DNA from: Crossaster papposus
Taxonomy: Eukaryota > Echinodermata > Asteroidea > Velatida > Solasteridae
Length of the DNA: 64,000 bases
Assembly (NCBI GenBank): GCA_037893245.1
Contig: JBAIAA010000693.1
Span: forward strand, 682,001 to 746,000
Reading direction: 5' to 3'
Below are positions 21,549-49,203 of the stretch, in pieces. Position numbers and translations under genes: made by a program. Positions within the stretch are counted from its first letter, which is position 1, and every line of letters starts with the position of its first letter. The notes under the pieces are model-generated. The model worked only from the letters and a program-made list of their open reading frames with translations. It did no database searches and was not told where the DNA came from.

Positions 21549-22140
21549 CGTCAGCGTCACCACGAAGTAACCTTAACCTGCTAAAGCGGCAATTTTAACA
21601 TTTGTAGAAAACAGCCTCTAAAGCTCAACGCATTTTGTAACGGTGATTTTAACTGCTTTTAGGAGTTCAAATGTTTATATATTATGAAGAGTGGAAAAGT
21701 ATGATTTAAATTAGGTATATTCACAATTTTTTTAATCAGAGATACTGTTAACACAACATTATAAACACATTAATGTTTACGTCACTTCGTGAAAACTCAG
21801 AAACAGGATTGGTAATCTTGTGCGCGCTTAGAGTTACTTCGTGAAAACTAGAAAGCTGGAAGGTCATTATTTTGTGTGCATACACAGAGGTTTGTGTTAC
21901 TTCGTGAAAACGCAGAATCACCGTCACCGCGAAGTAAACACAAATCGATACGCGCGACCCACTTCTGGCGTTTTCACGAAGTAACGCAAAGCCCATAGCT
22001 AATACACATGAATAGCGTCACTTCGTGAAAACTCGAAAACAGCGTACCTGATTTTGTAAGTTTTTACGAAGTGACGCTATCCGTGTGTATTAGCTATGAG
22101 GTTTGCGTTACTTCGTGAAAACGCCAGAAGTGGGTCGCGC
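21549..22140. promoter_or_regulatory. Element 1 left end: TIR plus ACTTCGTGAAAAC array
   Basis: After the TIR, the motif ttacttcgtgaaaac or its complement gttttcacgaagtaa occurs about eight times between 21780 and 22125. Two longer arms (about 21950-22015 and 22065-22145) are themselves inverted (gcgcgacccacttctggcg / cgccagaagtgggtcgcgcg). Such arrays are typical of transposase-binding subterminal sites; binding is inferred. Confidence 0.75.
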
Positions 22141-22629
22141 GTATCACATTATTGTGTGGAATAATATAATTATTGATAACAAACAGTCAATTATGAACTT
22201 TTAAAGTTTGATTTATTGAAGGTTTTCGTATAATCGTTCTTTTCTTTCCGAAGTGTGACCTCTTAGTATACCCCAATGAGTAATAAAAAGCCCGGCGTAT
22301 GATTTACACCAAAAACCGTAGAAGAAAAGATAACGATTTGGTCATGATTTGAAACTCGAACATTTATTGTAATATATAAAATTGACAATTTCAACATTTT
22401 ATTTCATTTACGAACTATTTTACAGTATACTTTGTTCACAAAATTAATGTCCACAACGTTGTCTTACAACAAAAGTCAAAGCTCAACACAGGTCAAGTTA
22501 TCCTTTTTCAAATTAAATGAATGTAATAGTTGTCGGTTGAACAAATTAAAATTGTACAATTCGTATATTTTGTTTTAAATTACATTTCTCGATATCATTA
22601 CTACAATATAGTCTGACCGCCATATAAAT

Positions 22630-22945
22630 ACTTCTTTGTAAAACAAGTCTAAAATTAAGTCCAATTTATGGTTTCTTGGCTGTAATTGGTTTTAAATCGA
22701 CGTTTAAATAATAAATAATTCATTTTAAAAGTTCATTGTAAAACAAGTCCAAGTTATGGTTTCACGGCTGTAATTGTTTTAAATTAACGTTTAAATAGTT
22801 CACTGTAAATAGTTCATTGTAAAACAAGTCCACGGTATCGCTTGGCGCTGTTTTTTTAAGTTAACGTTTAAATAGTTCATTGTAAACAGTTTATTGTAAA
22901 AGTCCATGTTATAGTTTCAAGGCTGTAATTTGAAATTAACATTTA
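22630..22945 (+). repeat. Degenerate tandem repeat (gttcattgtaaaacaagtcc units)
   Basis: Four or five diverged units share attgtaaaacaagtcc, gttatggtttcacggctgta and attaacgtttaaata. The array is interrupted by a foldback element at 22954-23620 and resumes with a further unit at 23691-23770. Confidence 0.7.
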
Positions 22946-22953
22946 AAAAAGGT

Positions 22954-23620
22954 AAGTTGTTCGCGGTAACACCATGTGGTTATTCTCTTTAGTGAGTTTT
23001 GTGGTTCTGAAAAGAACTATAGAAGAAACTCGACGTTTCGGACAGTATGCTCTGCACGTAGTCAGAACACTGAGCAATTCCAATGGTGAAGTGGAGCCTA
23101 GATACGGTCAAGTGTAAGGAAGGATGCAACGCATGGGTACTCATGCAGGACGTGAAGGATGATGAGTGATCAACTAGGCGTGTCAGCGAAAGAAGGGAGC
23201 GAAGGGGAATGCTGCCAAGGGTATAGCGGACGAGGCGGACTGGGTTGTGATGATGGGACGCCAGACGACGCTGATGGGGAAACCGATGTCTTGGGGAACC
23301 GCGTTGACATCGGTTTCTCCATCAGCGACATCTGGCGCCCCATCATCACCTTCCAGTGAGATGGGTCCCCTATATACCCCACAATACTTAGTTCTCCAGC
23401 CTATGGGTCCCCTATACCCTTGGCAACCTTCCTCTTCGCTCCCTTCCTTCACACTGACACGCCTGAGTTCCATTCTTCTTACGCTTCACCGTTTCATAAC
23501 CCAACTTCACCGTTGGATTCCCTGTCTCCTGACTGCGGACAGAACATGCTGTTCAAAATGCGGAGTTTCCTTCAGCTCTTCACTAAAGACAATTACCACA
23601 TGGTGTCCCGCAAACAACTT
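22954..23620. mobile_element. Nested 667-bp foldback (MITE-like) element
   Basis: The left arm reads AAGTTGTTCGCGGTAACACC then atgtggttattctctttagtga. The right arm read inward is AAGTTGTTTGCGGGACACC then atgtggtaattgtctttagtga. A second inner hairpin (gatgggacgccagacgacgc ... gcgacatctggcgccccatc, about 23250-23345) makes nearly the whole element self-complementary. It interrupts the degenerate tandem repeat of element 1. No clear TSD. Confidence 0.75.
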
Positions 23621-23910
23621 ATCATACTTGTTTTGCCTTTTCGCCATGCAAACCTTTCAATCTCATCTGACATTAAATAGTTAATCGAAAACAGTTCATT
23701 GTAAAACAAGACCAAGTTGAGGTTTCACGGCTGTAATTAAAAGTAACATTCTAAATAGTTCATATGAACTGTTTTCTTCTACCCATACACTTTGGCGCGG
23801 CACTTTCGTAAATCCGATTGACTTCAGACTTGGCACACGGATTGGTCAAGTTACATCACATAAAAGGTGCATAATTTGAAGTAATTATCTACACAACTAA
23901 AGAAACTTTC

Positions 23911-26900
23911 TTAGTGTGGAAGCTGAAGATAAAAGGCTTGGTAGTCAGGGTGGGAAATGACGGGGGTATTACCACGGCACAGAGCTTCAAGGTCTTTGTA
24001 CTTCCCAGTTGCCAGTTTTGGTCTTGATAACGCATATAGCGGTTGGCAAGAAACTGAATCGGCCTCGGAGCTTCTCCTAGAGGTACCCAACTTGACAACT
24101 GAAAACGATGGATCCGTATGGGAATATTTAAACCCGATTTGATTTGGTTTGTCTTTCCTTACTTGTATTTGTTTGAACTTAGTCCAGTCAACAGCCTTCA
24201 TGTCTTCCGAGATGCGCACCCTTAGGATACCCTGCTTTTGACTGAAACTTTTCCAGTCGTCAATATCAGATGATTTAACTGGAAAGACATTGTAGGGCCT
24301 AGGGTTTTTCCTCGCCATTTTGAAAATGGTCAACAGTTGGGAAGGTACCATGATTTCGTTGACTTGACTGATAGCTCTTTCTATGACACTATGCATCGAG
24401 TCTCCCTCGGACTGTCCGTGATTTGTCTCAAAGAAGTGCATTGTTACAACATTCACGGACAGCGATTTTGCAACAAAAGAGAGAAGCATCGATGGCAATA
24501 TGGAATTTTTGTTCTGGCCGGAGCACCCATCTGAAAACAGGTCAACTTGACGAACTCCCTTTTTGTCCAATCCTTTTAAATAATGGTGCACGTGCGATGC
24601 AACCTCGGATGATCCCCGACGTGTTTGACCTTCATGGGATGCATAGCAATGTCCTTCTTTGCCAGCAAGCTCATAGATGGTGAAATTATAATTTGCCAGG
24701 CGGCGTTTGTAAAAAAGTTCGGATCGTGTCGACTTCGGCAGGTAAATCACCTGCTGAAGGTCGAAGACAGCTGCATTGCAGGTCTTGTCTCGAGATGCCC
24801 TGTCTTTAGCAAGCCCTTTTAGTCTCCGAACTTCTTTCTTCTCAGTTATGTGCCTTTCATATTCTTCTTTGATTGTCTTCTGCTTATCTTCTGTCCCACG
24901 AAGGTAAGTGTCGCACAAGCCACACATGTCCTTTTTCGGATGATGAAATTTTAGATTGAGGGACGAAAATACCTTCTTATACAATGAAAGAGACGCTGCA
25001 GTGGGGTGGTCCATTTTATACATGTTGTACATGATCACAAAGTTCAAGTCGGGAGACAAGAACTGACACTTACTGTGGAGTCTACAATAGTGGGATTCCA
25101 TGCGTGGGAATCTGTCTATATGACGTATTACTTCTTCCCTTAGAACGTCGTCCCTCTCTTTTTGCTGCCTGCCACCTCTTTTTTCCCCCTCCAATACTCC
25201 GTAGGGCCCCGTTTTCTTCATGACCGTGCGCACTTGTGCGTCAGAAATTCCGAGAATACCTAGAAACATTCCCTTGCACACTCTTCTGTTTTTCATTTGC
25301 AAGTCAACGCTGGGAAGGAAATACTTGAACTGTTGTCTCTTATCCGTGGTGTTTACCATCTCTATGTACTTACTTAGCCATTCTCTTTGATACGACAACG
25401 TCCCAATGTCATAATAGGTATTTCGTATTTGTTTACCTTCTGCCTCTGATATCTTTTGGCAGTCAAAACCTTTGCTCTTGCACAACACACATCGACTTGT
25501 ATTCATGCATTCTCTCTTTGAAGGCATCGGCCTATTTGTTTTCTCCGTGTAATAAGGTTCACCTCGGTTTCGCTTTTCCTTAACCAGGGCATTTTTACTT
25601 CTAATTGGTTTAGCTGTCTTCGACGAAAGTGGTCTTGCCTCACCGGCACCATCAACTGGAAAGTCTTCTGGGTTTGCCTTTTCAACTATTTCCAGACTCC
25701 CTCTCCGATTATCAAGCTTTTCGACGGAAATGCGGAGCGATGCACCCATCGGGCTGACAACTGACTGTACATTAGTCTGACCATCCATACTGAGAGCAGG
25801 ATATGAAGGCGACATCGTGCCATCAACTTGCGCTGCTGCATGCATTTGATTATCGGGATTGCCTCGAACTTTAGATGAAGAAGACACCAGGCTTTCCACT
25901 GATGCATTCATCTGACTGTTAAAAGAGCCTGGAGCTCTGTATGAAGGGGACAACGGACTGTCAACTGGCCCAGCTGCATTCATCTGACTATTAGGATTAC
26001 CTGAAGCTCTGAATGAAGGAGACATCGGACTGTCAACTGGCCTAGCTGCATTCATCTGACTATTAGGATTACCTGGAGCTCTGAATGAAGGAGACATCGG
26101 ACTGTCAACTGGCCTAGCTGCAATCATCTGACTATTATGGTTGCCTGGAACTTGGTATGAAGGAAACCCCGTACTGTCAACTGGTGCTGCTGCATTCATC
26201 TGACTATTATGATTGCCTGTAGCTCTGTATGAAGGAGACATCGGACTGCCAACTGGCCCTGCTGCATTCATCTGACTATTAGGATTGCCTGGAGCTAGGT
26301 ATGAAGGAGACACCAAACTGTCAAATGGCCCTGCTGCATTCATCCGACTATTAGGATTACCTGGAGCTCGGTATAAAGGAGACATCGGACTGTCAACTGG
26401 CCCTGCTGCATTCTGACTATTAAGATTGCCTCGAGCTCTGAATGAAAGAGACATCGGACTGTCAACTGGCCCTGCTGCATTCTGACTATTAGGATTGCCT
26501 GGAGCTCTGTATGAAGAAGACATCTGACTGTCAACTGGCCCTGCTGCATTCATCTGACTATTAGGATTACCTGGAGCTCTATATGAAGGAGACATCGGAC
26601 TGTGAACTGGCCCTGCTACATTCATCTGACTATTAGGATTGCCTGGAACTTGGTATAAAGGAAACACCGGATTGTCAACTGGCCCAGCTGCATTCATCTG
26701 ACTATTATGATTGCCTGTAGCTCTGTATGGAGGAGACATCGGACTGTAGACTGGACCTGCTGCATTCATCTGACTATTAGGATTATCTGGAACTAGGTAT
26801 GAAGGAGACACCGAACTGTCAAATGGCCCTGCTGCATTCATCTGGAAATTGGGTTTGCCTGGAGCTCGGTATAAAGGAGACATCAGACTGCCAACTGGCC

Positions 26901-29900
26901 CTGCTGCATTCTGACTATTAGGATTGTCTGGAGCTCTGTATGAAGGAGACATCGGACTGTCAACGGGCCCTGCTGCATTCATCTGACTATTAGGATTGCC
27001 TGGAGCTCTGTATGAAGGAGACATCAGACTGCCAACTGGCCCTGCTGCATTCTGACTATTAGGATTGCCTGGAGCTCTGTATGAAGGAGACATCGGACTG
27101 TCAACTGGCCCTGCTGCATTCATCTGACTATTATGATTGCCTGTAGCTCTGTATGAAGGAGACATCGGACTATCAACTGGCTCTGCTGCATTCATCTGAC
27201 TAGGATTGCCTGGAACTCGGTATGAAGGAAACACCGGATTGTCAACTGGCCCAGCTGCATTCATCTGACTATTATGATTGCCTGTAGCTCTGTATGGAGG
27301 AGACATCGGACTGTAGACTGGACCTGCTGCATTCATCTGACTATTAGGATTATCTGGAACTAGGTATGAAGGAGACACCGAACTGTCAAATGGCCCTGCT
27401 GCATTCATCTGGAAATTGGGTTTGCCTGGAGCTCGGTATAAAGGAGACATCAGACTGCCAACTGGCCCTGCTGCATTCTGACTATTAGGATTGTCTGGAG
27501 CTCTGTATGAAGGAGACATCGGACTGTCAACTGGTCTAGCTGCATTCTTTTGCCTATTAGGATTGCCTGGAGCTCGGTTTGAAGGAGACATCGGACTGTC
27601 AACTGGCCCAGCTGCATTCATCGGACTATTGGGATTGCCTGGAGCTCTGTACGAAGGAGACATCTGACTATCAACTGGCTCTGCTGCATTCATCTGACTA
27701 TTATGATTGCCTGGAGCTCTGTATGAAGGAGACACCAGACTTTCAACTGGCCCTGCTGTATTCATCTGCCTATTAGGATTGCCTGGAGCTCGGTTTGAAG
27801 GAGACATCGGACTGTCAACTGGCCCAGCTGCATTCATCGGACTATTGGGATTGCCTGGAGCTCTGTACGAAGGAGACATCTGACTATCAACTGGCTCTGC
27901 TGCATTCATCTGACTATTATGATTGCCTGGAGCTCTGTATGAAGGAGACATCGGACTTTCAACTGGCCCAGCTGCATTCATCTGACTATTAAGATTGTCT
28001 GGAGCTCTGTATGAAGGAGACACCGGACTTCCAACTGGCCCTGCTGTATTCATCTGTCTATTAGGATTGCCTGGAGCTCTGTATGAAGGAGACATCGGAC
28101 TGTCAACTGGCCCTGCTGCATTCATCTGACTATTAAGATTGTCTGGAGCTCTGTATGAAGGAGACACCAGACTTTCAACTGGCCCTGCTGTATTCATCTG
28201 CCTATTAGGATTGCCTGGAGCTCGGTTTGAAGGAGACATCGGACTGTCAACTGGCCCTGCTGCATTCATCTGACTATTAAGATTGTCTGGAGCTCTGTAT
28301 GAAGGAGACACCAGATTTTCAACTGGCCCTGCTGTATTCATCTGCCTATTATGATTTCCTGGAGCTCTGTATGAAGGAGACATCGGACTGTCAACTGGCC
28401 CTGCTGCATTCATCTGACTATTAAGATTGTTTGGAGCTCTGTACGAAGGAGACATCTGACTATCAACTGGCTCTGCTGCATTCATCTGACTATTAGGATT
28501 GCCTGGAGCTCGGTTTGAAGGAGACATCGGACTGTCAACTGGCCCAGCTGCATTCATCTGACTATTATGATTTCCTTGAGCTCTGTATGAAGGAGACATC
28601 GGACTATCAACTGGCTCTGCTGTATTCATCTGCCTATTAGGATTGCCTGGAGCTCGGTTTAAAGGAGACATCGGACTGTCAACTGGCCCAGCTGCATTCA
28701 TCTGACTATTATGATTTCCTGGAGCTCTGTATGAAGGAGACATCGGACTGTCAACTGGCCCTGCTGCATTCATCTGACTATTAAGATTGTTTGGAGCTCT
28801 GTACGAAGGAGACATCTGACTATCAACTGGCTCTGCTGCATTCATCTGACTATTAGGATTGCCTGGAGCTCGGTTTGAAGGAGACATCGGACTGTCAACT
28901 GGCCCAGCTGCATTCATCTGACTATTATGATTTCCTTGAGCTCTGTATGAAGGAGACATCGGACTATCAACTGGCTCTGCTGCATTCATTTGACTATTAT
29001 TGCCTAGAGCTCTGTATGAAGTAGACATTGAACTGTCAACTGGCCCAGCTGCATTCATCTGACTATTAGGATTTCCTGGAACTTGGTATGAAGGAGACAT
29101 CGGACTGTCAACTGGCCCTGCTGTATTCATCTGACTATTAGTATTGTCTGAAGCTCTGAATGAAAGAGACATCGGACTGTCAACTGGCCCAGCTGCATTC
29201 ATCTGACTATTAGGTTTACCTGGAGATTTGTATGAAGGAGACATCGAACTGTCAACTGGCCCTGCTGCATTCATCTGACTATTAGTATTGTCTGGAGCTC
29301 TGAATGAAGGAGACATCGGACTGTCAACTGGCCCAGCTGCATTCATCTGACTATTAGGTTTACCTAGAGCTCTGTATGAAGGAGACATCGGACTGTGAAC
29401 TGGCCCTGCTGTATTCATCCGACTATTAGCATTGCCTGGAACTTGGTATGAAGGAGACACCGAACTGTCAACTGGCGCCGCTGCATTCATCTGACTAGGA
29501 TTGCAAGGATCATAAGTTGAAGATATTCGGCTTATAAATGACCTTGCCCTACTAACATGGTCTTCTGAAGAATTGGATGGAATCACAAAGGCATTGTGTG
29601 GAAAACAACTATCATTTAAAAGAAAGTTATCATAACATAAAAAACATAAACATCTACTGCATGCAGCCCAGATTTCCTTGTTGCATACAAAATCTTCACA
29701 TGTCGCCGCTTGGGAGTTAATTTCGACTACTGCTGACGACTTTGGAGTATCTGTAGAAGAGGCAATAATATAAGTGTACATGTAGTTAATTACATGTATA
29801 AAAGTTTATTTTATTAAATCCTGTTGTGCAGTATTACAACTAAATTTTGATTTTGTGTTGCTGCAACCAGCTGCGTAACTAGGGTGTATAAACAAAAACG

Positions 29901-30461
29901 GATTAATCTTTCAACAAAATGTTTACATTATTTTGGAGTCAGTTACATTAGTAATGTATCTTCTTTCATGGTTTTCTGGACACAAAAAGTGTTTGTTATG
30001 TCTTTACATCATTTGATTATATAGATACAGCCACAGCAAATAAAGAAAAAGAAAACTGATATAGTAAAGCTCAGTCAATTTTGTGGTTGAACAAAGTGTT
30101 CTATCTCAATAATGTGTAAAAAGCATTAGAAATTGCGAGACAATTATTTATGTGTTAAGATATTAAATTTGTTAAGATATTGATTTTGGAGGATTGGGGA
30201 CTGTTAGGGTTACTAAGAACACACTAACCTGTGTTCTTCAGTAGCTTAGCAAGAGGTACATCATCTGAATCAGAGTCGGACGAAGACTGATCTCCCTCCA
30301 TAGCTACCACGCGGCCCGTCCATGGTACTCCTTCCCACTTCATGTTGACTTTGGCCCCCTTCCTTATGGGTTCGGTGTACTGTAGATCTTGCAAGGAGAC
30401 AACATTTGATGTTCCATCCTGATCCCACACAACTAGAACATCGTCATCAGTCACAACCTCT
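23911..30461 (-). CDS. Element 1 transposase-like protein (SH3-like, 50-unit repeat, catalytic core)
   Basis: Exon 30461-30229 joins exon 29750-23911 in phase 1 (donor ACAG|GTTAGT, acceptor ctacag|AT). Upstream exons are unknown, so the N-terminus is open. In order: an SH3/Tudor-like module (DVLVVWDQDGTSNVV ... VNMKWEGVPWTGRVVAME), a Ser/Asp stretch, a Cys-rich cluster (CEDFVCNKEIWAACSRC ... C..C), about 50 copies of a 24-residue repeat, then a Cys-containing region (CVLCKSKGFDC) and the core: KKDMCGLCDTY, FDLQQVIYLPKSTRS, LFSDGCSGQNKNSILPSMLL, FFETNHGQSEGDSMHSVIER. From memory the core belongs to a large uncharacterised animal family often found in repeats (I believe DUF7869-like). The Asp in SDGC and the Glu in FFETNHG or IER are catalytic candidates; that role is inferred. 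No stop breaks 1940+ codons, so this copy looks intact. Confidence 0.8.
25880..29515 (-). repeat. 72-bp coding minisatellite, about 50 units
   Basis: The unit encodes 24 residues built around SQMNAAGPVDSPMSPSYRAP plus G-N-P-N. Variants such as units lacking one Met codon (NSQNAA) keep the frame. Blocks of several units recur as larger blocks (for example about 26640-26890 and 27220-27470), showing that higher-order duplication occurred after the basic unit expanded. Confidence 0.9.
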
Positions 30462-30551
30462 CTGTTTAAAACAAACAAATGTTTAATATAAAAAAAAACT
30501 AAGTTTCCAGTTGCAAAAGAGTTTTCATTCCACCTTTTTTTCTTTTTTAGA

Positions 30552-31175
30552 GCACCAGCAGCCGATTTCACGAAACCTTACGCAATTGCGTAAGCCCTCT
30601 TGCGCCACAATTTATTGCGTAAGCTGCGCTACTTTTGTTTGCTGCGCAACATTTCGCTTACGACAGTTACACGAAAGTTTGACAGTGCGTAAGTCCGTGG
30701 CTTGCGCAACAAATTATGGCGTAGCTTGCGCAGTCAATTTAGGTGGCGTAAGATATGGCGTAGCGACTGAAAATGACATTTTTTACCATCAAATCGTAAT
30801 TCACGTGGAGCCCGTCATTGCTCAACTTATTAAGCTTGATAAAGGACACTCACAGTTTCATGATTGAAGTAAAAGAATCACTATTTTACCCGTGACAGAA
30901 TTGTTAATGTTGCCACGCGATTTCGCGGAAAGTCGGACAAAACTATTTTTAAAATGGTGGGCGAAGGTGATACAACGACGATTTTGTGAAAGAACACAAT
31001 AATACGCAAACAGTCGTCGTAAACGATGTTTAAAACGTTGCGCAGCTACGCCAAGTTTCGTGAAATGCTCCGTAAGGAAATGGCGCAGCTACGCAACATT
31101 TTTGTTGCGTAAGCCTTACGCCACTTTTGAAAATGGCGCAAGCTACGCACTTTTCATGAAATCGGCTGCAGGTGC
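30552..31175. mobile_element. Nested 624-bp MITE with GCACC(A/T)GCAGCCGATTTCA ends
   Basis: Left end GCACCAGCAGCCGATTTCAC; right end read inward GCACCTGCAGCCGATTTCAT. The interior is packed with ttgcgtaagc / gcgcaagctacgc motifs in both orientations, so each half can fold on the other. It lies 90 bp upstream (in the sense of transcription) of the SH3-like exon of element 1, in an intron or the promoter. TSD not resolved. Confidence 0.8.
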
Positions 31176-31649
31176 CCCCCTACAAATTCCACCCTAGCTA
31201 TGCCAGTGGTTGGTTATTAATGCCAAAGAGTCAATTTACCTGGTTTGTCTCCTTTTTAGTCGCATTTCATGTACATGTAAATGTTCTTCTTCATCGGAGA
31301 AAGAGTGGTCTTCAGGTTATGTCAGCTTCATCGGACAATTTCTGAAGTAAAACAAATTAGTTCTTTGTAATAACTTCTGCCGTATATTTGTTTTTGTAAA
31401 CAAGAATTCATGGTCATTATTTTTTTCATTTTGCACAAATAAATGTATAAATAATGCAAAAAAATAGGGCAGTTACTTTTTGTAGGTCATAATCCCTGGC
31501 TGTTTGTTGCAGTAAAATATCATGATCGTGTGTATACAACTGAAACAGGGCATGCTCACTATATTGTGCAAAATTGTGCGAAATAACCAATATTTTGTTT
31601 GTTATACTAGAGGCATAGATAGTAATAAGCCTGGCTAGGGCAGCTTGGG

Positions 31650-31677
31650 TATGAAGGAGACATCGGACTGTCAACTG
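31650..31677 (+). repeat. Stray copy of the element 1 coding repeat
   Basis: Twenty-eight bases starting tatgaaggagacatcggact and ending gtcaactg match the 72-bp array exactly, but lie 2.1 kb outside it. The preceding gcctgg...agcttggg resembles the neighbouring part of the unit. It is not in frame with an obvious gene. Confidence 0.85.
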
Positions 31678-32261
31678 TATCACGTCTTCATCGATACAAA
31701 AGTTGGATTTCAGTTCACACATTTTGAGACAAATTACACAAGACAAAAAGTCCTAATTTTGGCGAAATATCGATGAGCTACTCGTGTGGAGGGGCAAAGT
31801 AGTACGGCTGCCTAGGCCTAAAGTCGTACACTATTAAGTACTACTAGCCCCAAACACAAATTCACGTTACGAATTGTACGTGTATTTAACAACTAACAAG
31901 GACCTTTATCGTACATTTTGTCGTCCAGTATTTGATGTCAAACAACTCTCTAATGTTATAAATTTACGGTAGTACATGACTGTTTTCGCCATAACTATAA
32001 ACATTCAACGAACACACCAAGTCAAAAATGTGACTGTCAGTCACTTACCATGCATGTCCACTGGGGCGCCATGTTGACTGCATGTACGAAAGATACGATG
32101 TTGTACGTGTACGTGTGCATATGCCGGTCTGCCTGCAAAGCACACACTGCATGTGCGTCTAGTCCAGGCCTACGTACGTAGTGCGTACGCTCAAGGCTAT
32201 TCCACCCCTGAGAAAGAGGTTAATACGTGGAACCTTTCTTTTCGTTTGGGTCAGCATATAG

Positions 32262-32566
32262 CGTTTTCACGAAGTAACGGCTAAGTATGTGTTACTTCGT
32301 GAAAACTTCTATGGATGGTTAAATATAATAGTTGATTTCCACGAAGTGAAGCATAGGTTAGCGATACTTCGTGAAATCAAAAATAGCTTGTTTACACAAT
32401 CATAACCACAATGCTAATTAATGTATTTACAAAACTAATTAATTTTAAGCGTTGTCAGTTTGTGTAATGACAGATTATGGATAGTTAATCACAAATATTA
32501 AAAAAAAACGAAATGTGAAAAACACCAATATATTGCCCTTAGTGTCACTTCGTGGTGACGGTGACG
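32262..32566. promoter_or_regulatory. Element 1 right end: ACTTCGTGAAA array plus TIR
   Basis: Copies of the motif occur at about 32266 (gttttcacgaagtaacg), 32289 (gttacttcgtgaaaac), 32339 (ccacgaagtga), 32369 (acttcgtgaaatc) and in the TIR at 32546 (cacttcgtggtgac). This mirrors the left end. Confidence 0.75.
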
Positions 32567-32570
32567 ACTT

Positions 32571-32652: not shown

Positions 32653-33384
32653 TTATGGGTCATTCTTCAGTAAGTGTCTACTTTCGTGTCCCGATACTTT
32701 GACGCCGTATAGACGGAAAATTCGTTATTCTCTGATTTGTGTTTTTATTTAATTTATGCTAATAAACATAATTCTTATAATAAACGATCATAAAAAGCTA
32801 CAAAATAAAGTGTTTAATGTTATTTATTTCCTGATGCGCGATGTCGACCCCCGGAAAACCCATGTCCCGATCGCACTATGTAAAAATTGTGATCGTTATA
32901 TTTATTTGGTGGAGAGACTTTTCTTCAAGAAAATACTCTTAAACACTAGGTATTTATTACCCAAATCTATTCAATCCCTCAAAATATGCCATTATAAACC
33001 GATTAAGTCCTAAATTTTATCGTTTTTTCCGAAAAATTTTGTCCCGAGGATTTCAGTCAGATACCGTCACTAACCTGTGCAGCGCCCTCAATAGTTGATA
33101 AAAATCGCTTAGTCCCGCTGTTCTGGTCTTTTTACACCCGCGAAATACAACAGTGGCTGGTGTACTTAGTTTCTCCGGATTGCGTGACTAAACATCCGTA
33201 AAAATCAGGGTTTTCGCTCAATGACAGGTACGTACCTTTATTCAGTGTCATATCCGAACGCTATAGAACCCATTAAATAGAAACAATTATTGTTTTTTTG
33301 TGACTAGTAGTGCAAATAGATTCGTGACTTGTGCAACGTCCCGAAGCTTCGCGCCAGGCATCGTCTGAACCGCGAAGCCATGGG

Positions 33385-37244: not shown

Positions 37245-37263
37245 TTGAAATAAAAAAAATATA

Positions 37264-37380
37264 CAGTGGAACACTGATAAGAAGAGTTGAAAACAAAGAA
37301 AAACAAAGACTTGGGACCTAAACTGTTCCTTGTTGTAAGCAGGATGTTGTAGTAACAGTGCTCTTATCAGTGTTCGACTG
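37264..37380. mobile_element. 117-bp Tc1/pogo-type MITE with TA target duplication
   Basis: The ends read CAGTGGAACACTGATAAG and, inverted, CAGTCGAACACTGATAAG (one difference). It is flanked by TA on both sides (37262-37263 and 37381-37382). Termini starting CAGT(C/G)GAAC with a TA duplication are typical of pogo/Tigger-type non-autonomous elements. It is nested in element 3 just after the transposase stop. Confidence 0.8.
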
Positions 37381-37390
37381 TATTCATTGC

Positions 37391-37860: not shown

Positions 37861-38111
37861 TGAAAACAGAAAAACGAGGCTGATAACTGTGCTGACATGT
37901 GCTTACACATGTACAATGTATGTGACTACCATCCTGATATTTCCAGTGATTTGTTTCATGAAATATGTACTCCTTACTTTATTTCCGGACACACTAGGAA
38001 ATACATGTATTACATTTTACACTAATACAAGAATTGGTTTTCCACCTGTATAAAAGATTTATTTAAGGTTCAAACTAGAGCATTACAAAATATAATGGTC
38101 TCTTGAAACTA

Positions 38112-38178
38112 AGGTCTGGCTCGCATTATTAAACGGGCGAGTCCCAAAACATGCTTTAAAATAATGCGAGCCAGACCT
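38112..38178. repeat. Hairpin with 19-bp perfect arms
   Basis: AGGTCTGGCTCGCATTATT (38112-38130) and its exact complement (38160-38178) enclose a 29-base loop. It could be a MITE remnant or a structured transcript element inside element 3. Confidence 0.85.
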
Positions 38179-38289
38179 AACCAAGATACCATTTTGTTCA
38201 AGTAATGGTCTAGTTCTCACACTTAATCTAATACAGAAATGTGCTGGTGATTAGCTTGTAATAGAGTTGAATTGTGTTAAAAATTGTTG

Positions 38290-38580
38290 TGTTGAAAACT
38301 GTTGAAAATTGTTGCATTGAATACCGTTGAAAATGGTTGCATTGAATCAACACAATGATGACTGAATACTGTTGAAAATGGTTGCATTGAATCAACACAA
38401 TGATGACTGAATACTGTTGAAAATGGTTGCATTGAATCAACACAATGATGACTGAATACTGTTGAAAATGGTTGCATTGAATCAACACAATGATGACTGA
38501 ATACTGTTAGAAATTCAAATTGTTGCATTGAATACTGTTTCAAATTGTTGCATTGAATACTGTTGAAAAAATGTTGCATT
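38290..38580 (+). repeat. 45-bp satellite, four full units plus diverged edges
   Basis: The unit contains gttgaaaatggttgcattga and atcaacacaatgatgactga and is repeated four times between about 38324 and 38510. Shorter variants of the tgttgcattgaatactgtt core lie on both sides. Antisense ORFs across it are shadows. Confidence 0.9.
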
Positions 38581-39376
38581 GAAAATTTTCACTAACCAGC
38601 TGTAGCATTGAAACATACAAAATCTGTGCATTCTAGAAGGTCAAATGGCAAATTATAAGTTGTGGAAATATATATATAAACTTGTTTTGACAATCTTATA
38701 TTGAGTATTACATCTTGTTCTCAACCATAACAAACTGTTGGAGCCTGATGATAGTTGAAGTCATCTCCGTCACATTACACTCCTGAACTTGATCATCTCC
38801 GTCACGGCTAGTCATATCCGTCACATGACTATTGTATGCCAATAATGTGTGAAATAATACAAGAGTGAATAAATTTATCAGTTGTAATTGATAAATGAAC
38901 AGTGTGCATCTGCTAATTCATCTGAAGTTTATGTTGTTTACGAGGAAGTTGGTGAAAAATAATGTCACAGTCCCCGTTTTTTGCTGAAAATCACCACTTG
39001 TTGAGGCAGTAAACTGTTACGAGGGTCTAAAATCGGTACGTTATACTGAGACAATAAAATATTTGGATTTATTTGAGGACAATACTCTATAGTTTTATAG
39101 ACTGGGACATAAACGTGGATTTGTAGTCTAAATTCGGTTATATTTTCCAGGGTTGTTTGTCCCAAAAATGTGACGGATATGACTAAATGCAATGACTAAC
39201 CTGGAAAAAGATGAGGACAATTGAATATACTCTGGTAAAGATTGCGCCAAACATGGTTTTACCGTGCTAGAGATGTTCATCTATGTGAAAAAATATTCTA
39301 AGCTGCAAAAATTAAGTTTTTAAAATCGGTTTTCCATAAACGTGAAAGTAGACACTTACTGAAGAATGACCCTTAT

Positions 39377-40182: not shown

Positions 40183-40245
40183 CCTTTCACTTCTACATAC
40201 ATATACGACCCCACTTATAAGAGTACTTGTACATACTTGAAACCA

Positions 40246-41998: not shown

Positions 41999-42214
41999 CG
42001 TCGATCGTACCACGATCTGACCTATCTCATTTTTTGTTATTTCGAGAAAAACGCGTTTAAAGTTGGGCTGATTTTGCATCCTTATTTTCCCCTATAACAG
42101 TAATGTGAATTGACTCAATTTGTATACATATTAAATTTGGATAGTTAAATTATGACATTAAATTGTTGCCAAGGCAATATCTCATCAGTAATGGGTTGGA
42201 AATAAGCGCTAAAG

Positions 42215-42400
42215 TCATAAGTCGCTTCGTGAAATTTAAAATTTCATATTTCAGGCGCGCGAACAGCGACCTATCAAGATAGGTCACTTCGTGAAATTTT
42301 TATTTTCATATTTCAGGCGCGCGAACAGCGACCTATCTAGATAGGTCACTTCGTGAAACGAAAATTTTAATTTATTGCCAGACTGACAGCGACCTATCTC
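42215..42400. promoter_or_regulatory. Element 2 left subterminal repeats (GATAGGTCACTTCGTGAAA)
   Basis: Two to three units of about 62 bases each carry (t)aggtcacttcgtgaaa, tttcatatttcaggcgcgcg and aacagcgacctatc. The words gacctatct and agataggtc also occur in the TIR itself. They are candidate transposase-binding sites. Confidence 0.75.
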
Positions 42401-43273
42401 TTGTGCGCATGCGCGATGCTAGTTCTTTCGAAATAAGACCGTCAAGTTCGTATATGCTTCATTATTTCATTGATATTTTTTCTCGGAATGGACCAGTCTG
42501 CTTAAAAAGGTCAAGATACTATACAATGATAGCCTCCTAAATTTACATGCGATGATTGTTTTCGCCACTATATTCAATAATTATATCACCTTATTAAAAT
42601 CACCCTTAAGGTGGCATAGCTACCATCAAAAAAGATCATATTGTTATTATTATTATTATTTTTATTTGGTAGGGTTTGAACAATAATTCGTGGTCCGTGG
42701 AAAGGAAGTAAAAAATGATGTCACAAACAGAAAAATCGACACTTCGTTTCAATTCCATCAAAATTGTAATTTTAATAACTTATTATCATGAACATTGAAA
42801 TCCAATTCATTAGTTTACAACATCAACGTAAACCCCTTACAATTTTCAATTGCATATTCACCCATTTTACAAATTGCAGATAAAAGTGGTGCCAATGTAC
42901 AATTTAAAATTTACATCAACATTATACACCTGTGGACTATAATGTTTAGTATCCAAAGTACTTCACCATTAGCTCTCTTTAATAAAAAGGGAAGATAGTC
43001 ATGTAACTGCATGTGTCGGTACTTTATTACGTATACCTTGATCTATTTCTAAATGATGGAATTCTTGCAATTCATTTTTTCTTCATCTGCTCACTTAAAG
43101 TAGTTACCACAAAATAAATTCGTTATTTTGGGACTTAAATAAAGGAGGTCATGTATACGGGAAATACATCAATTGTACTTTAAGTGACAATTTTCACACC
43201 TTAGTTAGGCCTTGTGGAATAATCTCTTGACAGTTGAAAATTTAACTGCAAGCACCAAGAAATCACGAATTCT
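42401..43273. other. Element 2 left internal non-coding stretch
   Basis: AT-rich sequence downstream of the transposase stop. It includes a short att microsatellite near 42640-42665. Nothing else was recognised. Confidence 0.4.
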
Positions 43274-46200
43274 TCAATGGGGGAGATTTTGGTAGAAGAC
43301 AATGTGATCTTGATGGTTTATAACCGGAGTTGGGCCCTCACACAGACTCATCAGGTCGTTGTACTTACCCTCAGCAAGTTTTGGCGGGCCTTTAGCATAG
43401 ACTGATGGGGGATATTCCATGTGACTAGGAAAAACGTGCCTTGAATTTCTCTCTTCCAAATCAATTGTGTCAAAGTTGTCTTCCAAGTGTGAAAATTTCA
43501 CCATGATCTTTTTGGGTCGATTTTTTGGCACTTCAACTTGCATCACCTTTTTCCAATCTACACTCTTACCCTCTGTAGTTGTACGCACTCTCAAAATGTG
43601 CATTGTTTGACTGAGTGCCTTCCAATCACGAATGTCTTGCGTTTGTACTTCTGTGACCTTATACTTTTCAGGAGCCTTTCTAGCACCCGTAATCAATGTT
43701 GCCAGTTGACAGGGAAGGAACAGATCTCCAGCGCCCTTTAGGGCCCGCTCAATTGTGCTATGCATCGAGTCACCCTCGCTTTGACCATGGCTGGTCTCGA
43801 AGTAATACAGTGTAATTTGGGTTACTGACAAAGACTTCTCCAGAAAGTACATTATCATGGCTGGTAAGATAGAATTTTTATTTTGTCCTATGCACCCATC
43901 GCTGAAAAGAGCAACTTCTTCTTTTCCTTGTTTGTCTAGGATTGACAGATATTTGTACAAATTCGATGCAATTTCGTTTGCACCGCGTCTGGCAATTCCT
44001 TCATGATGAAGGAAGCAGTATCCTGATCTAGTGCCTAGTTCGTATACCGTAAAGTCATAGCAGGAAAGCCTTCGTTTATAAAATAGCGATCCTCTTCCAG
44101 ATTTAGGGAGGTATATAACCTGTTGGAGGTCGTACACGGATGCTTGGAATTTCTGTGGATTTGAGGCAGCCTGTGTTTTTTTTGTTTTCTTTATTTCTCT
44201 TACAGCACATTTTTCTTAGGTGTGTCTAGTATAACCCTCATTGAGCTTGATCATTGCCTTTGTGATAAGTTTCACATATCCCGCACAGATCTTTTTTTGG
44301 CTTGTGAAACTTGAGTTTCATGTTATGCAGCGTGTTTGCATAGAAACTTAGAGAAGCTCTTTTCTTAGGCATCTCTGCCAGGTACAATTCATACATTTTG
44401 TGTATGTTCAGATCACTTGACAGATACTGAAATGTTGTAGCTTGACGACAATAATGAGACTCTGTGTTTGGAAATCTCTTAATATGAGCTTCAACTTCGT
44501 TTTTGAGAAGTTGATCTTTGGCCTTGGATTGCCTCCCTCCTCTTCTATCTGCTTCAAGAATGCTACACGGCCCAATTTTATTTATAACCGTTCTTACCTG
44601 GCGGTCTGAAATTCCTATTGTGTTCAAAAACATAACTTTACAGACCTGGCATGGTAAGTTGTCTTTACCCTTGGGAAGGTAAAAACGTGTGACCCTCTTT
44701 TTGCGAGTACTGCTTTGTGGGGTCGTTGTTTCAGTGTGTCGTGCAATCCATTCTCTTTGAGCCTGTAAGTTATTGATAGCAAAATATGCACCCCTAATGG
44801 AGAGTCGCTCTTCTTCAGAAAACTGATCACACTCACGTTTTCTTACGCTGCAGAACAATAAATCACACCTCGGCCTATTTTTTGTTTTTCTTGCTTCCTT
44901 GAATCTATGTGTCTTCTCTGTGAAGTAACCATCTCCACTGTTTCTCTTTTGCTTCACTGTTTTATTTTTGGCTTGACTAGTTTGCTTTTCAGTAATTTCT
45001 GTTGGCTCATTGACTTCCATTTTTGGTCCCCCTTCGACTTCAAAACTTTCAGGGTCTTGAAAAGCAAATCCTGTTACTGAATCATTTGTTTCAACGCCTG
45101 AACAACCTACATCTGTGTTCAACTCATCACCATGCATGTCGTCAGAGGACATGTTTACTTCATGTAGGGCTTGTTCTTTAGTGCAATTTATGTTCGTCCC
45201 CTTGCTAGCATTAGAAAGTAGGGCAACATATGCATTGTGTGTTTCACAGGAGGATGATCCTACTACAAAATGTTCAAAACATAAGAGACATGAACAAGTA
45301 CTACATGCAGCAAATATATCTTCGTGGCAGCTAAAATCTGAGCAGATTTCACCTCTCTCATGCTGCAGAGCTGTCCAATTTGACAGGGCTTTCGATCTTG
45401 AGATGTCTGATCTTGTGGCTGCAGGAGTATAAATAAAAGAGTATAAATCAACATTATTTTTCAAAATATGCAGCAGTAGCAACAAAGTCTAATATTGTAA
45501 TCTCAAATAAGAATTCTGAAAATGACAGGCTATAAACCTTACCGGTGAATGGGGTAGCCACTGGACTACTGGCACTGGTGAATGGGGTAGCCACTGGACT
45601 ACTGGCACTGGTGAATGGGTTAGGCACTGGACTACTGACACAAGTGAATGGGTTAGCCACTGGACTACTGGTACTTGTGAATGGGTTAGGCACGGGACTA
45701 CTGGCACCGGTGAATAGGGTAGCCACTGGCACTGGACTACTGGCACCAGTGAATGGGTTAGGCACGGGACTACTGGCACCGGTGAATGGGTTAGCCACTG
45801 GACTACTGGTACTTGTAAATGGGTTAGCCACTGGACTACTTGCACCGGTGAATGGGTTAGGCACGGGTCTACTGGCACCGGTGAATGGGGTAGCCACTGG
45901 ACTACTGGTACTTGTGAATGGGTTAGCCACTGGACTACAGACACCAGTGAATGGGTTAGGCACTGGCCTACTGGTACTTGTAAATGAGTTAGCCACTGGA
46001 CTACAGACACCGGTGAATGGGGTAGCCACTGGACTACTGGTACTTGTGAATGGGGTAGCCACCGGACTACTTACACTTGTGAATGAGTTAGCCACTGAAC
46101 TACTGGCACCGGTGAATGTGTTAGGCACGGGACTACTGGTACTTGTGAATGGGGTAGCCACCGGACTACTGACACTTGTGAATGGGGTAGCCACTGGACT

Positions 46201-47540
46201 ACTGACACTTGTGAATGGGTTAGCCACCGGACTACTGACACTTGTGAATGGGGTAGCCACCGGACTACTTACACTTGTGAATGGGTTAGCCACTGAACTA
46301 CTGGCACCGGTGAATGGGTTAGGCACGGGACTACTGGTACTTGTGAATGGGGTAGCCACCGGACTACTGACACTTGTGAATGGGATAGCCACTGGACTAC
46401 CGACACCGGTGAATGGGGTAGGCACTGGCCTACTGGTAGTACTGGTGAATGGGGTAGCCACTGGACTACTGGTACTTGTGAATGGGGTAGCCACTGGACT
46501 ACAGACACCGGTGAATGGGTTAGGCACGGGACTACTGGTACTTGTGAATGGGGTAGCCACCGGACTACTGACACTTGTGAATGGGATAGCCACTGGACTA
46601 CTGACACCGGTAGATGGGGTAGGCACTGGCCTACTGGTAGTACTGGTGAATGGGGTAACCACAGAAGTACGTGCACCTGTAAATAATTTAGACAAAATAA
46701 ATGAATAGCAAAATGGTAGGCCTGACTTAACTGTTGAAATATGTGCATGCAGATTGATCTTTCGTATCAAAATTCTTGCATACTTTTCTGTCCCTCGTAG
46801 AGTAGCATTGGTGATATTATTTTCTTTGAAATAAAACTCCGCAAAAGACTTTGCCTGCACATGCAAAAGAAACTACAACAAAAAACAAAAAACTAAAAAC
46901 TTGTTTCTGTTAAACATGTTTGAAGGCGACAAATTTGGTTTTATAGGCCAAGCTACTTCTGTGAGTTATGGCATCCTTTAAAAGATTCCTGAAGATTAAA
47001 ACATTTACTGTTTTGTAGCCTAATGTTTATGAATGAAGACACTTACATTTTGTTACTGTGACCAGCCTACTAAGTGGCAGTTCATCTGTGCTGTCGCTGT
47101 CTTCATCTACACTGCTCTCTTGAGGAAAAAGGAAAAACAAAACAAGGGGCGTGAACAAATAATTATAAACAAAACATTAAATACACAGGAAATAAAAGAC
47201 CACATTTAGTATGCAAAACAATGCAATTTTCATACATCAAGAACTATTACTTTCCAATGTACCTTCCTCCCAAGGATGAGAAATTTGCTTTCTTGGTCTA
47301 TTGCATGAAAATGTTTTAAAAATGCACCCAGCAATATATGTTCAACAACGTTGTCTGTCTGTTATCAAGGTTGTACTTACTTGCTCTTTCCTCGAAGTCA
47401 ACAACATTCCCTCTCCACAACACCTTCCCCCACTTCATCTTCACATTCAGGTTTACCTGAAGTGGTGGTTTGTATTTGAGATGAGCTGAATTGACAACAT
47501 TCCTGCTACCATCAGACCACAGGACAAGAACATCCATACT
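43274..47540 (-). pseudogene. Element 2 transposase-like gene, multi-exon, broken
   Basis: I read these minus-strand exons: 47540-47381 (SH3/Tudor-like: MDVLVLWSDGSRNVV ... VKMKWGKVLWRGNVVDFEE), 47118-47047 (Ser/Asp-rich, as in element 1), 46676-45543 (about 34 copies of an 11-residue repeat), and 45418 onward (Cys cluster FSCHEDIFAACSTCSCLLC, then the core). Junction phases agree (1, 1, 1). The core runs KKDLCGICETY, YDLQQVIYLPKSGRG, LFSDGCIGQNKNSILPAMIM, YFETSHGQSEGDSMHSTIER and stops at 43274. It aligns by eye along its length with the element 1 protein. Between 44137 and 44260 the reading is broken: a frameshift near 44255 and an in-frame TAA near 44216. Upstream exons before 47540 are unknown. 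The copy is probably inactive unless the breaks are assembly errors. Confidence 0.8.
45543..46676 (-). repeat. 33-bp coding minisatellite forming a whole exon, about 34 units
   Basis: The unit encodes 11 residues of the form P-F-T-(S/G)-x-S-S-P-V-(A/P)-(T/N). The exon is exactly bounded by gtttacag-type acceptor and G|GTAAGG donor sites and consists almost only of repeats. Long antisense ORFs here are shadows. Confidence 0.9.
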
Positions 47541-48890
47541 CTGTAATATTAAATAATACAAAAAAAAACATCAACTGATGTTTGATCGGTGGGTTACAGA
47601 TGGGTCAGCAAATTGAAAAATTGATTTATAAGCATATTTTGTGTGCAAAAGCCTACATTGTGTTGTTTATAATAGAAAGACATTCAGACTGGGCCCTGTT
47701 GGTAAAATATTTACATTTTCTTCCTAAATCTTTTACAAGAAAAAAAGGCTAGACTCTCAACAACATTAGTGACTGTAGCCATAGCTAAAAAAGTAAGTAA
47801 AGTAAAGTAAAGTAAAACAACCAAAAAACCTTGAGGCTTAACACCTAATATTTTTAAGAACATACCGGTAGGCCTAGTGTGATCGTTACAACAGCCATAA
47901 TGAGATGTTCAGTATCCTTACGGTACTGTAAAATGCATTACTAATCTATAACATATGCCTGACTAAGCAGAACGCTTCAGTAGCTTATTTACTAGTTAAA
48001 CGTTCAATTAGTGTGCCAGATCCGGGTTAAATTCTTGGTCCCTTTTTTGTCTATAGTTTCATGTTTTTAATCAAACCATTCTTTTTATTTAGGCCCGAGT
48101 AGATTTCATTTTGTTCTATTTAATCCATGGCTTTAGAGGGTTTGTGGAAAGGAAATATGTCAGAGAACCATCCAGTTGAATACAAGTTTAGTTCCAAAAG
48201 CTCTTGATGTTGAATGCATTACGGCTGCCGTAACAATAGCCACTGTATTTTAGACATTTGGCGATGAAACTGAGTGATAGGCCTAAATGTACAACTTCAT
48301 TCTTCAAGCAGGAAAGTCACCTTGTGTGCGTGGAATGATCTCAATAGTTCAATAAAGATACCATGTTGAATACATTATCAGCTAGCTTTAACGTTTGTAG
48401 AAATATGGCAGGGTTTTGAACGGGGCTTGTAAAATATTGACTCTATTTTTAATAAAGTTAGGCTAGACCGAGGCCTAGACTAGTGTACTGCGTATTGCAT
48501 GTATTGGCCTAGGCCTTACCATGCTTACGCAATCATGGCAGTGTTGGCAGAAATAGGCCTCGGTCAAGCGTGACTTATGTGTTCCGAGCTCAATTATTTA
48601 CTTGTGTCCATATCTACTGTTCACGAATATCAAAATAAAGAGTTTAACAAAACTATGGAGTAATTACTGCCCTTATATTAGTTAAAATACTTACAGAATG
48701 ATGCGGTCTATGTTGCTGCGTTCTCTGCCTAGGCGCCCTGTACCTGCCTACTACATGACATGACATACTGACACTGTACACGTACATGTAATGTATGTAT
48801 ACATGTTGCGTTAACTGCATTATATTTTCATGCGGGTTTTCTATTGCGTCCAGTTACCAGACATGACCTCGTAGTTTTTTTCCCGTGTAA
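47541..48890. other. Element 2 right internal non-coding stretch
   Basis: It presumably contains the first exon(s) and promoter of the element 2 gene. A fragment at 48221-48245 (acggctgccgtaacaatagccactg) resembles one arm of the foldback element at 55313-55514. No other feature was recognised. Confidence 0.4.
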
Positions 48891-49199
48891 ACAGATAGGT
48901 CACTTCGTGGTACGTTTTATCGTAACAATATTGCCCAATTGGTTGTGTCCGTTCGTGAAAACTTGGCGCACGAACATAATATTTTCACGAAGCGACCTAT
49001 CTCAATGCGTCGTTTTGTGAAACTAACTTTTCAATTTTTTCGCAATGCGTCGTTGTGCTAATTAGCAAAATTAGCTAATAAGCAACTTAATTTCTTCCAA
49101 AGTTTCAGAAATTGAAGTGTTTATGTATATATCACAATTGAACCCAAAACCCATTTTCGCCAAAAAATTGAGATAGGTCAGATCGTGGTAACGAAGACG
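48891..49199. promoter_or_regulatory. Element 2 right end: subterminal motifs and TIR
   Basis: It contains agataggtcacttcgtggta (about 48892), gttcgtgaaaacttggcgca (48951), ttttcacgaagcgacctatctc (48983-49004) and the terminal ttgagataggtcagatcgtg. These match the left end words in inverted order. Confidence 0.75.
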
Positions 49200-49203
49200 A
49201 ATT

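Follow-up and report, generated by a model that had tools for sequence, protein, structure and literature searches.

The 64-kb window, that is, the whole stretch of DNA analysed, contains three complete DNA transposons, and each of them encodes an SDG-type core, a tandem array and a small module, as the preliminary description had claimed. The coordinates of the elements and their parts are given in Table 1.

Table 1. Coordinates, in window numbering, of the three transposons and their parts
Feature	Position	Strand	Basis or remark
Element 1, family A transposon, 11.0 kb	21549..32566	-	inverted ends; termini CGTC.../...GACG
TTTCACGAAGTRAC subterminal copies, candidate transposase-binding sites	21781..22120		7 matches here and 4 at 32265-32376
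Element 1 main exon with zinc finger, array and core	23914..29750	-	within 1964-aa open frame
Element 1 DDD core (SDGCSGQNKN ... HGQSEGDS)	23914..24843	-	fold from model of homologue P0003
Element 1 coding array, 50.3 units of 72 bp (24 aa)	25899..29497	-	TRF
Element 1 zinc finger	29596..29700	-	pattern scan
Element 1 exon: N-terminal SH3/Tudor-like module and acidic tail	30229..30461	-	splice motifs, phase, alignment
Element 2, family B transposon, 6.7 kb	32657..39372	+	inverted ends
Element 2 exon 1, DDD core (... HGKGAPDG)	34091..36088	+	splice motif; fold from model of homologue P0027
Element 2 exon 2, holding the array and the C-terminal module	36558..37241	+	splice motif
Element 2 coding array with units of 15 bp (5 aa)	36659..36929	+	TRF: x 15.7 at 36690-36925
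Element 2 C-terminal SH3/KOW/PWWP-like module	36970..37200	+	predicted model, Foldseek
Element 3, family A transposon, 7.2 kb	41999..49199	-	inverted ends
Element 3 zinc finger and DDD core exon	43277..45418	-	finger 45344-45237 by pattern scan
Element 3 array exon, 1134 nt, without stop	45543..46676	-	phase 1-1; 11-aa units
Element 3 acidic exon, 72 nt	47047..47118	-	phase 1-1
Element 3 SH3/Tudor-like module exon	47381..47540	-	donor motif fixes the 3' end; 5' start approximate

Ends and domain order of the three elements

The elements are bounded by inverted repeats of 32-41 bp, located at 21542-21576/32539-32573 in element 1, 32654-32685/39344-39375 in element 2 and 41995-42035/49163-49203 in element 3, and each is flanked by a 4-bp duplication. 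The duplication TTAT at element 2 was found using a duplication scan, while ACTT at element 1 (21545-21548 and 32567-32570) and AATT at element 3 were identified by visual inspection of the flanking sequence; the scan requires six exact terminal bases and did not list the ends of these two elements, ranking other end pairs instead in the case of element 3. The insertion site of element 3 is the integrase frame of a retroelement, with rve on one side and Integrase_p58_C on the other. CGTC termini with a 4-bp duplication of the A..T form were detected by the scan in 9 of 20 loci examined, where L021 and L024, which share flanks, count as one. No end pair was obtained by the scan in nine of the 20 loci, and the sole pair in L029 and L030 falls within the array. 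The flanks of L023 read TGCAATT/AATTGCA, so its exact duplication is ambiguous. Scanning the window for Rfam families and tRNAs gave no matches.

The motif TTTCACGAAGTRAC was matched 19 times in the window, compared with 1.16 expected, and 18 of the 19 matches fall in the terminal regions of element 1 or element 3. The end motif is not common to all family A elements; a scan with a shorter motif gave no match in L021-L024.

Every splice predicted from splice motifs in the DNA of elements 1-3 preserves the reading frame. In element 1, the module exon would be joined to the main exon (30461-30229 to 29750) in phase 1; this module exon has 91 matches in its own genome. The predicted join of element 2 (36088 to 36558) is in phase 0 and is also present in P0017 of Patiria miniata, which matches exon 1 with 93% identity over 96% of the query. 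The predicted joins of the module, acidic, array and finger exons of element 3 are all in phase 1, and the end of its array together with the donor motif recurs in copies L002 and L003. The element 3 core frame is broken near 44215-44241 in the window copy and is open in L002, a 99% identical copy.

The array is placed between the zinc finger and the core in element 1 and between the SH3 module and the zinc finger in element 3. The three-part plan of the preliminary description stood for core, array and module but overlooked the zinc finger of elements 1 and 3. Its account of domain order was borne out, the module being N-terminal in two elements (1 and 3) and C-terminal in one (2), as was its report that the linker repeats are unlike between elements: 24 aa repeated 50.3 times in element 1, 11 aa (33 bp) repeated 33.5 times in element 3 (TRF, 45545-46662) and 5-aa units in element 2. 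The count of 14 units reported for element 2 was too low because TRF gave 15.7 and about 18 were counted by eye when degenerate units were included; the paralogue L046 has 20.

Predicted catalytic core, zinc finger and predicted SH3-like modules

The earlier expectation of a catalytic fold was upheld by the models of homologues, in which the cores of both families are predicted to be RNase H-like DDD domains. The nearest structures were retroviral integrases, Mos1 and TnsB, with Z to the integrases reaching 10.2 for family B and 11.7 for family A. The triads, D482/D559/D602 in family A (P0003 numbering; invariant or at least 90%) and D479/D560/D602 in family B (P0027 numbering; at least 90%), occupy strand 1, a position immediately following strand 4, and the last helix of these models. 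Comparison of the family A core (elements 1 and 3) with the family B core (element 2) gave 93.5% in hhalign, and the families appear to share a diverged core related by profile alone. The elements had been described as one family, but two families are present, and their modules show no clear homology. A common origin of these modules was considered and not retained, their comparison giving a probability of 3.8% and an E-value of 0.011.

When the core profiles were compared with the sequences of solved structures, no match was found for family A and one match of doubtful meaning (E 0.0042) was found for family B. The family A cores of the window matched DUF7869 (PF25273), a Pfam entry that states no function, with 22.9 and 24.6 bits, under the cut-off of 26, while the relative P0015 passed it with 37.1 bits. 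Tc5_C (PF04236; cut-off 27.4) scored 20.9 with the finger exon of element 3, under the cut-off, and 28.3 with the homologous finger in P0014, over it. Module, zinc finger and core are encoded together in one unbroken frame at 5 of the 20 loci (L017-L020 and L022); these five were chosen because earlier matches already put both parts in one frame. Moreover, repeats and core occur in one predicted protein in P0014, an NCBI entry from Cyamophila willieti, and in P0017 of Patiria miniata, where the repeat is short and was identified by eye.

The SH3-like fold expected of the modules was well predicted in family B and suggestive at best in family A. The family B module, modelled with pLDDT > 90, is well predicted as an SH3/KOW/PWWP-like barrel: Foldseek returned SPT5 KOW5 with a probability of 1.00, 2.3 A and a target TM of 0.79, and PWWP with probabilities of 0.89-0.99, the E-values of these matches being 0.08-0.3. 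The best Foldseek rows were herpesvirus terminase and NurA nucleases, and none had E ≤ 0.001. A Pfam scan of 13 family B module sequences gave scattered sub-threshold matches, one of them chromo-like, with no SH3 family ranked first. A stretch homologous to the module of element 2 was recognized by eye in 25 of the 49 rows of alignment A3. The family A module was modelled with four strands, mostly at pLDDT < 50. Five of its six matches among structure chains (E up to 10) were Agenet, BAHCC1 or PHF1 Tudor proteins, with E-values of 0.63-1.9. In Pfam, several of the 10 families listed for 12 members were of Tudor/SH3 type (E 0.05-0.22); the best match was DUF7141 (E 0.0028, one member), and the others were unrelated. 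These sub-threshold matches are only suggestive of a Tudor-like module in family A. The VIA-align rows for this family showed no match across the module, a result that does not count as absence.

Coding tandem arrays in the linker

Among the family A matches listed in this genome, 20 of 127 lie within frames of at least 900 aa. One clade of family A cores (13 rows, 94/95) includes six kinds of long arrays, with units of 24, 21, 22, 25, 35 and 53 aa. Family B carries its own array kind, as does a psyllid homologue, and other linker arrays are present in L045, P0007, P0014, P0015, P0055, P0062 and P0070. The distance from the zinc finger to the conserved DFxVDG motif is 29-143 aa in short forms and 686-1461 aa in array forms, and linker length differs among four insertions of one subfamily (767, 925, 925 and 1015 aa). 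Long arrays are tolerated and not essential for spread, because copies with linkers of 74-82 aa at separate sites are 97-98% alike. A non-repeat linker exists as well.

The pN/pS ratio was 0.84-1.56 in 9 of the 14 frames examined, corresponding to five of nine array kinds; it was 0.91 in element 1, 0.73 in element 3, 0.60 in element 2, 0.64 in L031 (shifted frame) and 0.41-0.42 in L029 and L032. With values of at least 0.84 in five of nine array kinds and about 0.4 in two, it therefore appears that an open frame and hydrophilicity last better than unit sequence. Unit sequence is weakly constrained in five array kinds and clearly constrained in two, and selection of the linker for flexibility, as proposed earlier, would go beyond these values.

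These values bear on the reading that the arrays are neutral passengers, in which an unconstrained linker gathers coding minisatellites as any disordered region does and selection keeps the frame open, nothing more. Besides the high ratios in five array kinds, this reading, which we hold possible but somewhat doubtful, agrees with the short-linker copies being as mutually alike as the array copies and with a repeat detector having been passed by only 6 of 136 proteins (134 of them database matches; in family B, the top 120 of 240 were considered). However, long arrays occur across six subfamilies within one clade and again in element 3, family B and other homologues, which may be more often than expected by chance.

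The coding frame had the lowest content of order-promoting residues among the three sense frames in all ten arrays (once tied). By a disorder index, it ranked first among the sense frames of 8 of these arrays and first among all six frames of only 4. The expansion of an already hydrophilic linker would account for this result without further selection. In seven arrays, about 10.5 stop-making changes were expected among the distinct variants and none was present in the coding frames, while 2 distinct variants would make stops on the consensus. The indel-run counts from this test reflected its simple gap model and were disregarded. Little weight is given to the stop-codon result because the copies were chosen partly for open frames; many of the loci were chosen for long or joint open frames, so the absence of stops is biased.

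The arrays could instead act as DNA, providing repeated binding sites or structural spacers, and be coding by the accident of a period divisible by three. At no more than 1 stop per 100 codons, several frames are indeed open in some arrays (3 of 6 in element 3 and 6 of 6 in element 2), but the coding frame alone is open in the arrays of element 1 and L026. Moreover, splice motifs in matching phase bound the array of element 3, and TTTCACGAAGTRAC is found at element ends and not within arrays; the idea is considered extremely improbable.

Family A units are rich in S, P, T, A and G, and those of element 2 and L045 (family B) are rich in K, E, R and T, as judged by eye. Such compositions, together with the constraint in L029 and L032, would suit repeats that form a functional multivalent region, used for self-association, condensates or host-factor docking, with unit number tuning the concentration or activity of the transposase. 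However, units of different subfamilies mostly show no sequence relationship, and we regard this role as very unlikely. Array homology between subfamilies was tested for 21 pairs of consensus units, and the lowest p-values, for element 1 and L032 (peptide 0.02, DNA 0.003) and, in DNA, for L032 and L036 (0.003), L026 and L029 (0.01) and L033 and L036 (0.013), are not clearly significant after 21 tests. Consequently, either six births or one ancestral array with turnover would fit these values in the clade with six array kinds. The array of element 3, at another position, and that of family B look separate in origin.

Probable superfamily and proposed role of the linker

Sola transposons have been described with 4-bp AT-rich target duplications, a DDD core and inverted ends (PMC10741241, PMC3627910); the inverted ends are 11-1124 bp long and the elements are mostly 2-9 kb, some being larger (PMC10741241), and Sola2 has AWWT-type duplications (PMC3627910). 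As far as these descriptions extend, the elements found here resemble Sola, of which Sola2 may be the nearest group, in their 4-bp duplications, DDD triad, inverted ends and sizes of about 5 to 11 kb. With respect to the AWWT pattern reported for Sola2, the family A duplications AAAT, ATTT and AATT fit, while ACTT (element 1 and L018) and TTAT of element 2 do not. The 4-bp duplications suggest the Sola superfamily, to which the elements most likely belong, as judged from duplications and published descriptions. The elements differ in their coding tandem-array linkers, which are absent from the passages on Sola in PMC10741241 and PMC3627910. Such linkers in transposases were likewise not described in the titles and abstract openings searched, a scope that excluded most subscription journals and probably the original Sola description.

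The likeness to retroviral and LTR-retrotransposon integrases lies in the RNase H-like core and, in family B, in the SH3-like module that likewise follows the core. Unlike in the integrases, the family A module is N-terminal, the linkers reach 1461 aa, and the elements are DNA transposons without reverse transcriptase. The coiled-coil region of LINE-1 ORF1p is hypervariable and polymorphic in repeat length; it differs from the arrays here in being a coiled coil of a retrotransposon protein and not the inter-domain linker of a DNA transposase.

On balance, we lean towards these elements being cut-and-paste DDD transposons with a modular transposase, whose linker is a permissive slot that expands into coding minisatellites. 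The slot would be permissive because an open frame and hydrophilicity are its sole requirement. The elements would represent one diverged DDD superfamily, in which the RNase H-like core cuts and joins the element ends, probably helped in family A by the zinc finger binding to these ends. The SH3/Tudor-like module would sit beyond the disordered linker, by analogy with the SH3-like C-terminal domain of retroviral integrases, and, with the core held in the synaptic complex, may contact target DNA, chromatin or a partner; the tethering role given to the module in the preliminary description is of this kind. In-frame duplications in the linker may expand by slippage and unequal exchange, and the resulting coding minisatellites would turn over and change length between copies.

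A stronger version, which we think rather unlikely, is that two sister DDD families repeatedly and independently turn the inter-domain slot into coding minisatellites, or admit whole domains, because it is favourable to have core and chromatin-reading module tied by a disordered stretch that is long and quickly renewed. Such a tether could, for example, give access to far-off targets, broaden target choice or evade recognition by the host, and linker length would then be an evolvable rheostat of transposition.

Nature supplies here linkers of graded length and varied chemistry on related cores; therefore, part swaps can probe the roles of the linker and the SH3-like domain in integrase-type enzymes. 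As every array subfamily examined has its own array, the elements also allow coding minisatellites to be followed from birth through turnover. Transposases are commonly regarded as compact and conserved; the open transposase frames found here extend to about 2,100 residues, and two thirds of the longest case consist of linker repeats.

Element limits, insertion sites and terminal motifs

The preliminary description had placed three DNA transposons in the window, and these were borne out as complete elements, at the coordinates given, by inverted ends and 4-bp flanking duplications. As element 3 sits within a retroelement integrase frame, between rve and the p58 C-terminal domain, its empty site could be read directly. 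The split retroelement comprises, in order, a SCAN-like stretch (below cut-off), the integrase core, the integrase C-terminal domain, reverse transcriptase and RNase H; the integrase thus lies ahead of the reverse transcriptase, an order known from Gmr1-like Gypsy elements.

Features of the window and of two related loci
Feature	Coordinates	Strand	Details
Element 1 (family A)	21549-32566	-	ACTT duplication (flanks, by eye)
Element 2 (family B)	32657-39372	+	TTAT duplication (scan)
Element 3 (family A)	41999-49199	-	AATT duplication (flanks, by eye)
Element 1 SH3-module exon	30461-30229	-	joined in phase 1 to exon starting 29750
Element 2 exon join	36088 to 36558	+	phase 0
Element 3 SH3 exon	ends 47381	-	phase 1
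Element 3 acidic exon	47118-47047	-	72 nt, phase 1
Element 3 array exon	46676-45543	-	1134 nt, stop-free, phase 1
Element 3 finger/core exon	from 45418	-	phase 1
Element 3 interruption	near 44215-44241	-
Split retroelement	40246-42026; 49178-51366	-	divided by element 3
Isolated TTTCACGAAGTRAC copy	12825-12838		one mismatch
Inverted repeat in element 1 end	21947-22145		87 bp, 94% complementary; bears subterminal motif
Inverted-repeat insert in element 1	30552-31173		beside SH3 exon (by eye)
Element 2 3' part	37391-37859; 38267-38583		235-bp duplication and 45-bp/25-bp arrays
Tandem array outside elements	18558-18970		48-bp units x 6.4
Tandem array outside elements	62719-63019		84-bp units x 3.6, 97% matches
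Family B relative	L045:1-2772		1472-aa frame
Frameshifted copy	L031:5195-8074		long open frame retained

Twenty related loci were fetched from the same genome at 10 kb as a chosen set, many of them selected because their open frames were long or joint. Nine had CGTC termini and 4-bp duplications of the pattern A..T; L021 and L024 represent one site with common flanks, and L023 leaves the exact duplication ambiguous. The sole terminus pair of L029 and of L030 falls within the array, and the scan detected no terminus/duplication pair in the remaining nine. The motif TTTCACGAAGTRAC occurred 19 times in the window with at most two mismatches, compared with 1.16 expected, and 18 of these occurrences fall within an end of element 1 or element 3. 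Judged from sequence, the copies are candidate transposase-binding sites. A shorter form was present in L017, L018, L020, L026 and L028 but was not found in L021-L024 by motif scan; therefore, the motif is not family-wide. The only window copy beyond elements 1 and 3 may mark a small non-autonomous relative. The insert beside the SH3 exon of element 1, which carries many TTGCGTAAGC-like motifs, looks like a nested MITE.

Two sources (PMC3627910, PMC10741241) define Sola by a DDD core together with AT-rich duplications of 4 bp. Since the elements have such duplications and a predicted DDD core, they are best filed as Sola-like on these traits.

Protein parts and small modules

As all its joins are of phase 1, the element 3 array exon is symmetric. 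Both the array end and the splice donor motif were present in the copies L002 and L003, and no array was found in the approximately 250 bases examined upstream of the finger exon in the more distant L006. L002, 99% identical to element 3, is open where the window copy is interrupted.

In the 1.02-Gb assembly, at least 127 places matched the element 3 core and at least 91 the element 1 module. Module, zinc finger and core occupied one uninterrupted frame of 804-884 aa in five of the 20 chosen loci (L017-L020 and L022), and a Patella caerulea protein (P0003, 759 aa) has the same order. Repeat array and core were joined in one database protein of Cyamophila willieti (P0014). The element 2 product was 93% identical to P0017 of Patiria miniata across 96% of the query, which makes a sea star the probable source of the DNA; a short repeat after the core of P0017 was seen by eye but did not pass the repeat detector.

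The small modules had been described as SH3-like. Structure prediction upheld this for family B, whose C-terminal module gave a high-confidence model of a small beta barrel; for the N-terminal module of family A, pLDDT was mostly <50 and the prediction is suggestive only. Foldseek matches of the family B module included PWWP domains (probability 0.89-0.99) and SPT5 KOW5 (1.00, 2.3 A); their E-values were weak, starting at 0.08. Thirteen module sequences scanned against Pfam gave scattered sub-threshold matches only. Retroviral integrases likewise have a core followed by a C-terminal SH3-like domain, parts and order that the family B model would match. Some integrase alignments cover both jointly at an rmsd of 15.8-17.8 A, and therefore show common parts and order only. 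The module of family A shows conservation, with 12 columns invariant across 14 rows (several near-duplicates among them); its matches were sub-threshold, several being Tudor-like. Clear homology was not found between the two modules. The family A zinc finger is related to Tc5_C.

Linker lengths and array evolution

Linkers spanned 29-143 aa in short forms and 686-1461 aa in array forms, counted between the zinc finger and the conserved DFxVDG motif. Four copies of one subfamily, with linkers of 767, 925, 925 and 1015 aa, have alignments that stop at the element limit and hence lie at different sites. Among the 127 listed core places of element 3, 20 lie in open frames of at least 900 aa (up to 2107), two of them with a stop within the match; for family B, 6 of 65 own-genome matches lie in frames of at least 900 aa.

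Linker lengths and pN/pS between units one period apart
Measure	Values
Short linkers (aa)	L006 29; element 3, L002, L003 63; L023, L024 74; L017-L020 80-82; L022 143
Array linkers (aa)	element 1 1310; L025 1015; L026, L027 925; L028 767; L032 1029; L033 1461; L035 686; L036 712
pN/pS	element 1 0.91; L025, L026, L028 0.85-0.95; L033, L034 0.84-0.85; L035, L036 1.28-1.56; L045 0.85; element 3 0.73; element 2 0.60 (few changes); L031 0.64 (shifted frame); L029, L032 0.41-0.42

Between subfamilies, the unit consensus sequences were mostly without similarity beyond chance. One core clade (13 rows; 94/95, just below the program's starred level) holds units of 24, 21, 22, 25, 35 and 53 aa, while the 11-aa array of element 3 falls in a separate clade. 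A third clade contains L017, L022 and L023, short-linker forms from among the fetched loci. Family B carries arrays of its own. The 5-aa units of element 2 numbered 18 by eye, and 20 in its paralogue L046; the family B relative in L045 carries two different coding arrays in succession. The repeat detector was passed by 6 of 136 proteins (P0007, P0014, P0015, P0055, P0062 and P0070), 134 of which were database matches, with family B represented by the best 120 of 240. In P0034, a family B homologue, the linker contains a sub-threshold OTU-like stretch (PF02338, E 0.013), and a similar motif was seen by eye in that of P0083, likewise of family B. P0015 has an N-terminal Herpes_teg_N-like stretch slightly below its cut-off.

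According to the pN/pS values, two of nine array kinds show clear constraint on unit sequence, and five show weak constraint or none. The coding frame had the lowest share of order-promoting residues among the three sense frames in all ten arrays (once tied). On a disorder index, it ranked first of three sense frames in 8/10 arrays and of six frames in only 4/10. This composition would also follow if each array had arisen from an already hydrophilic linker.

In the proposed mechanism, the core would act on the element ends within a synaptic complex, aided by the zinc finger, and the SH3-like module would reach chromatin, target DNA or a partner via the disordered linker. The linker may be a permissive slot, in which in-frame duplications would expand into minisatellites and then be replaced. 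Alternatively, the arrays would accumulate as neutral passengers in an unconstrained linker, with no selection beyond an open frame. Copies whose linkers measure 74-82 residues lie at separate sites and are 97-98% alike; hence long arrays are unnecessary for spread, and this alternative therefore remains strong. In L031, the array frame is shifted relative to its sister L032.
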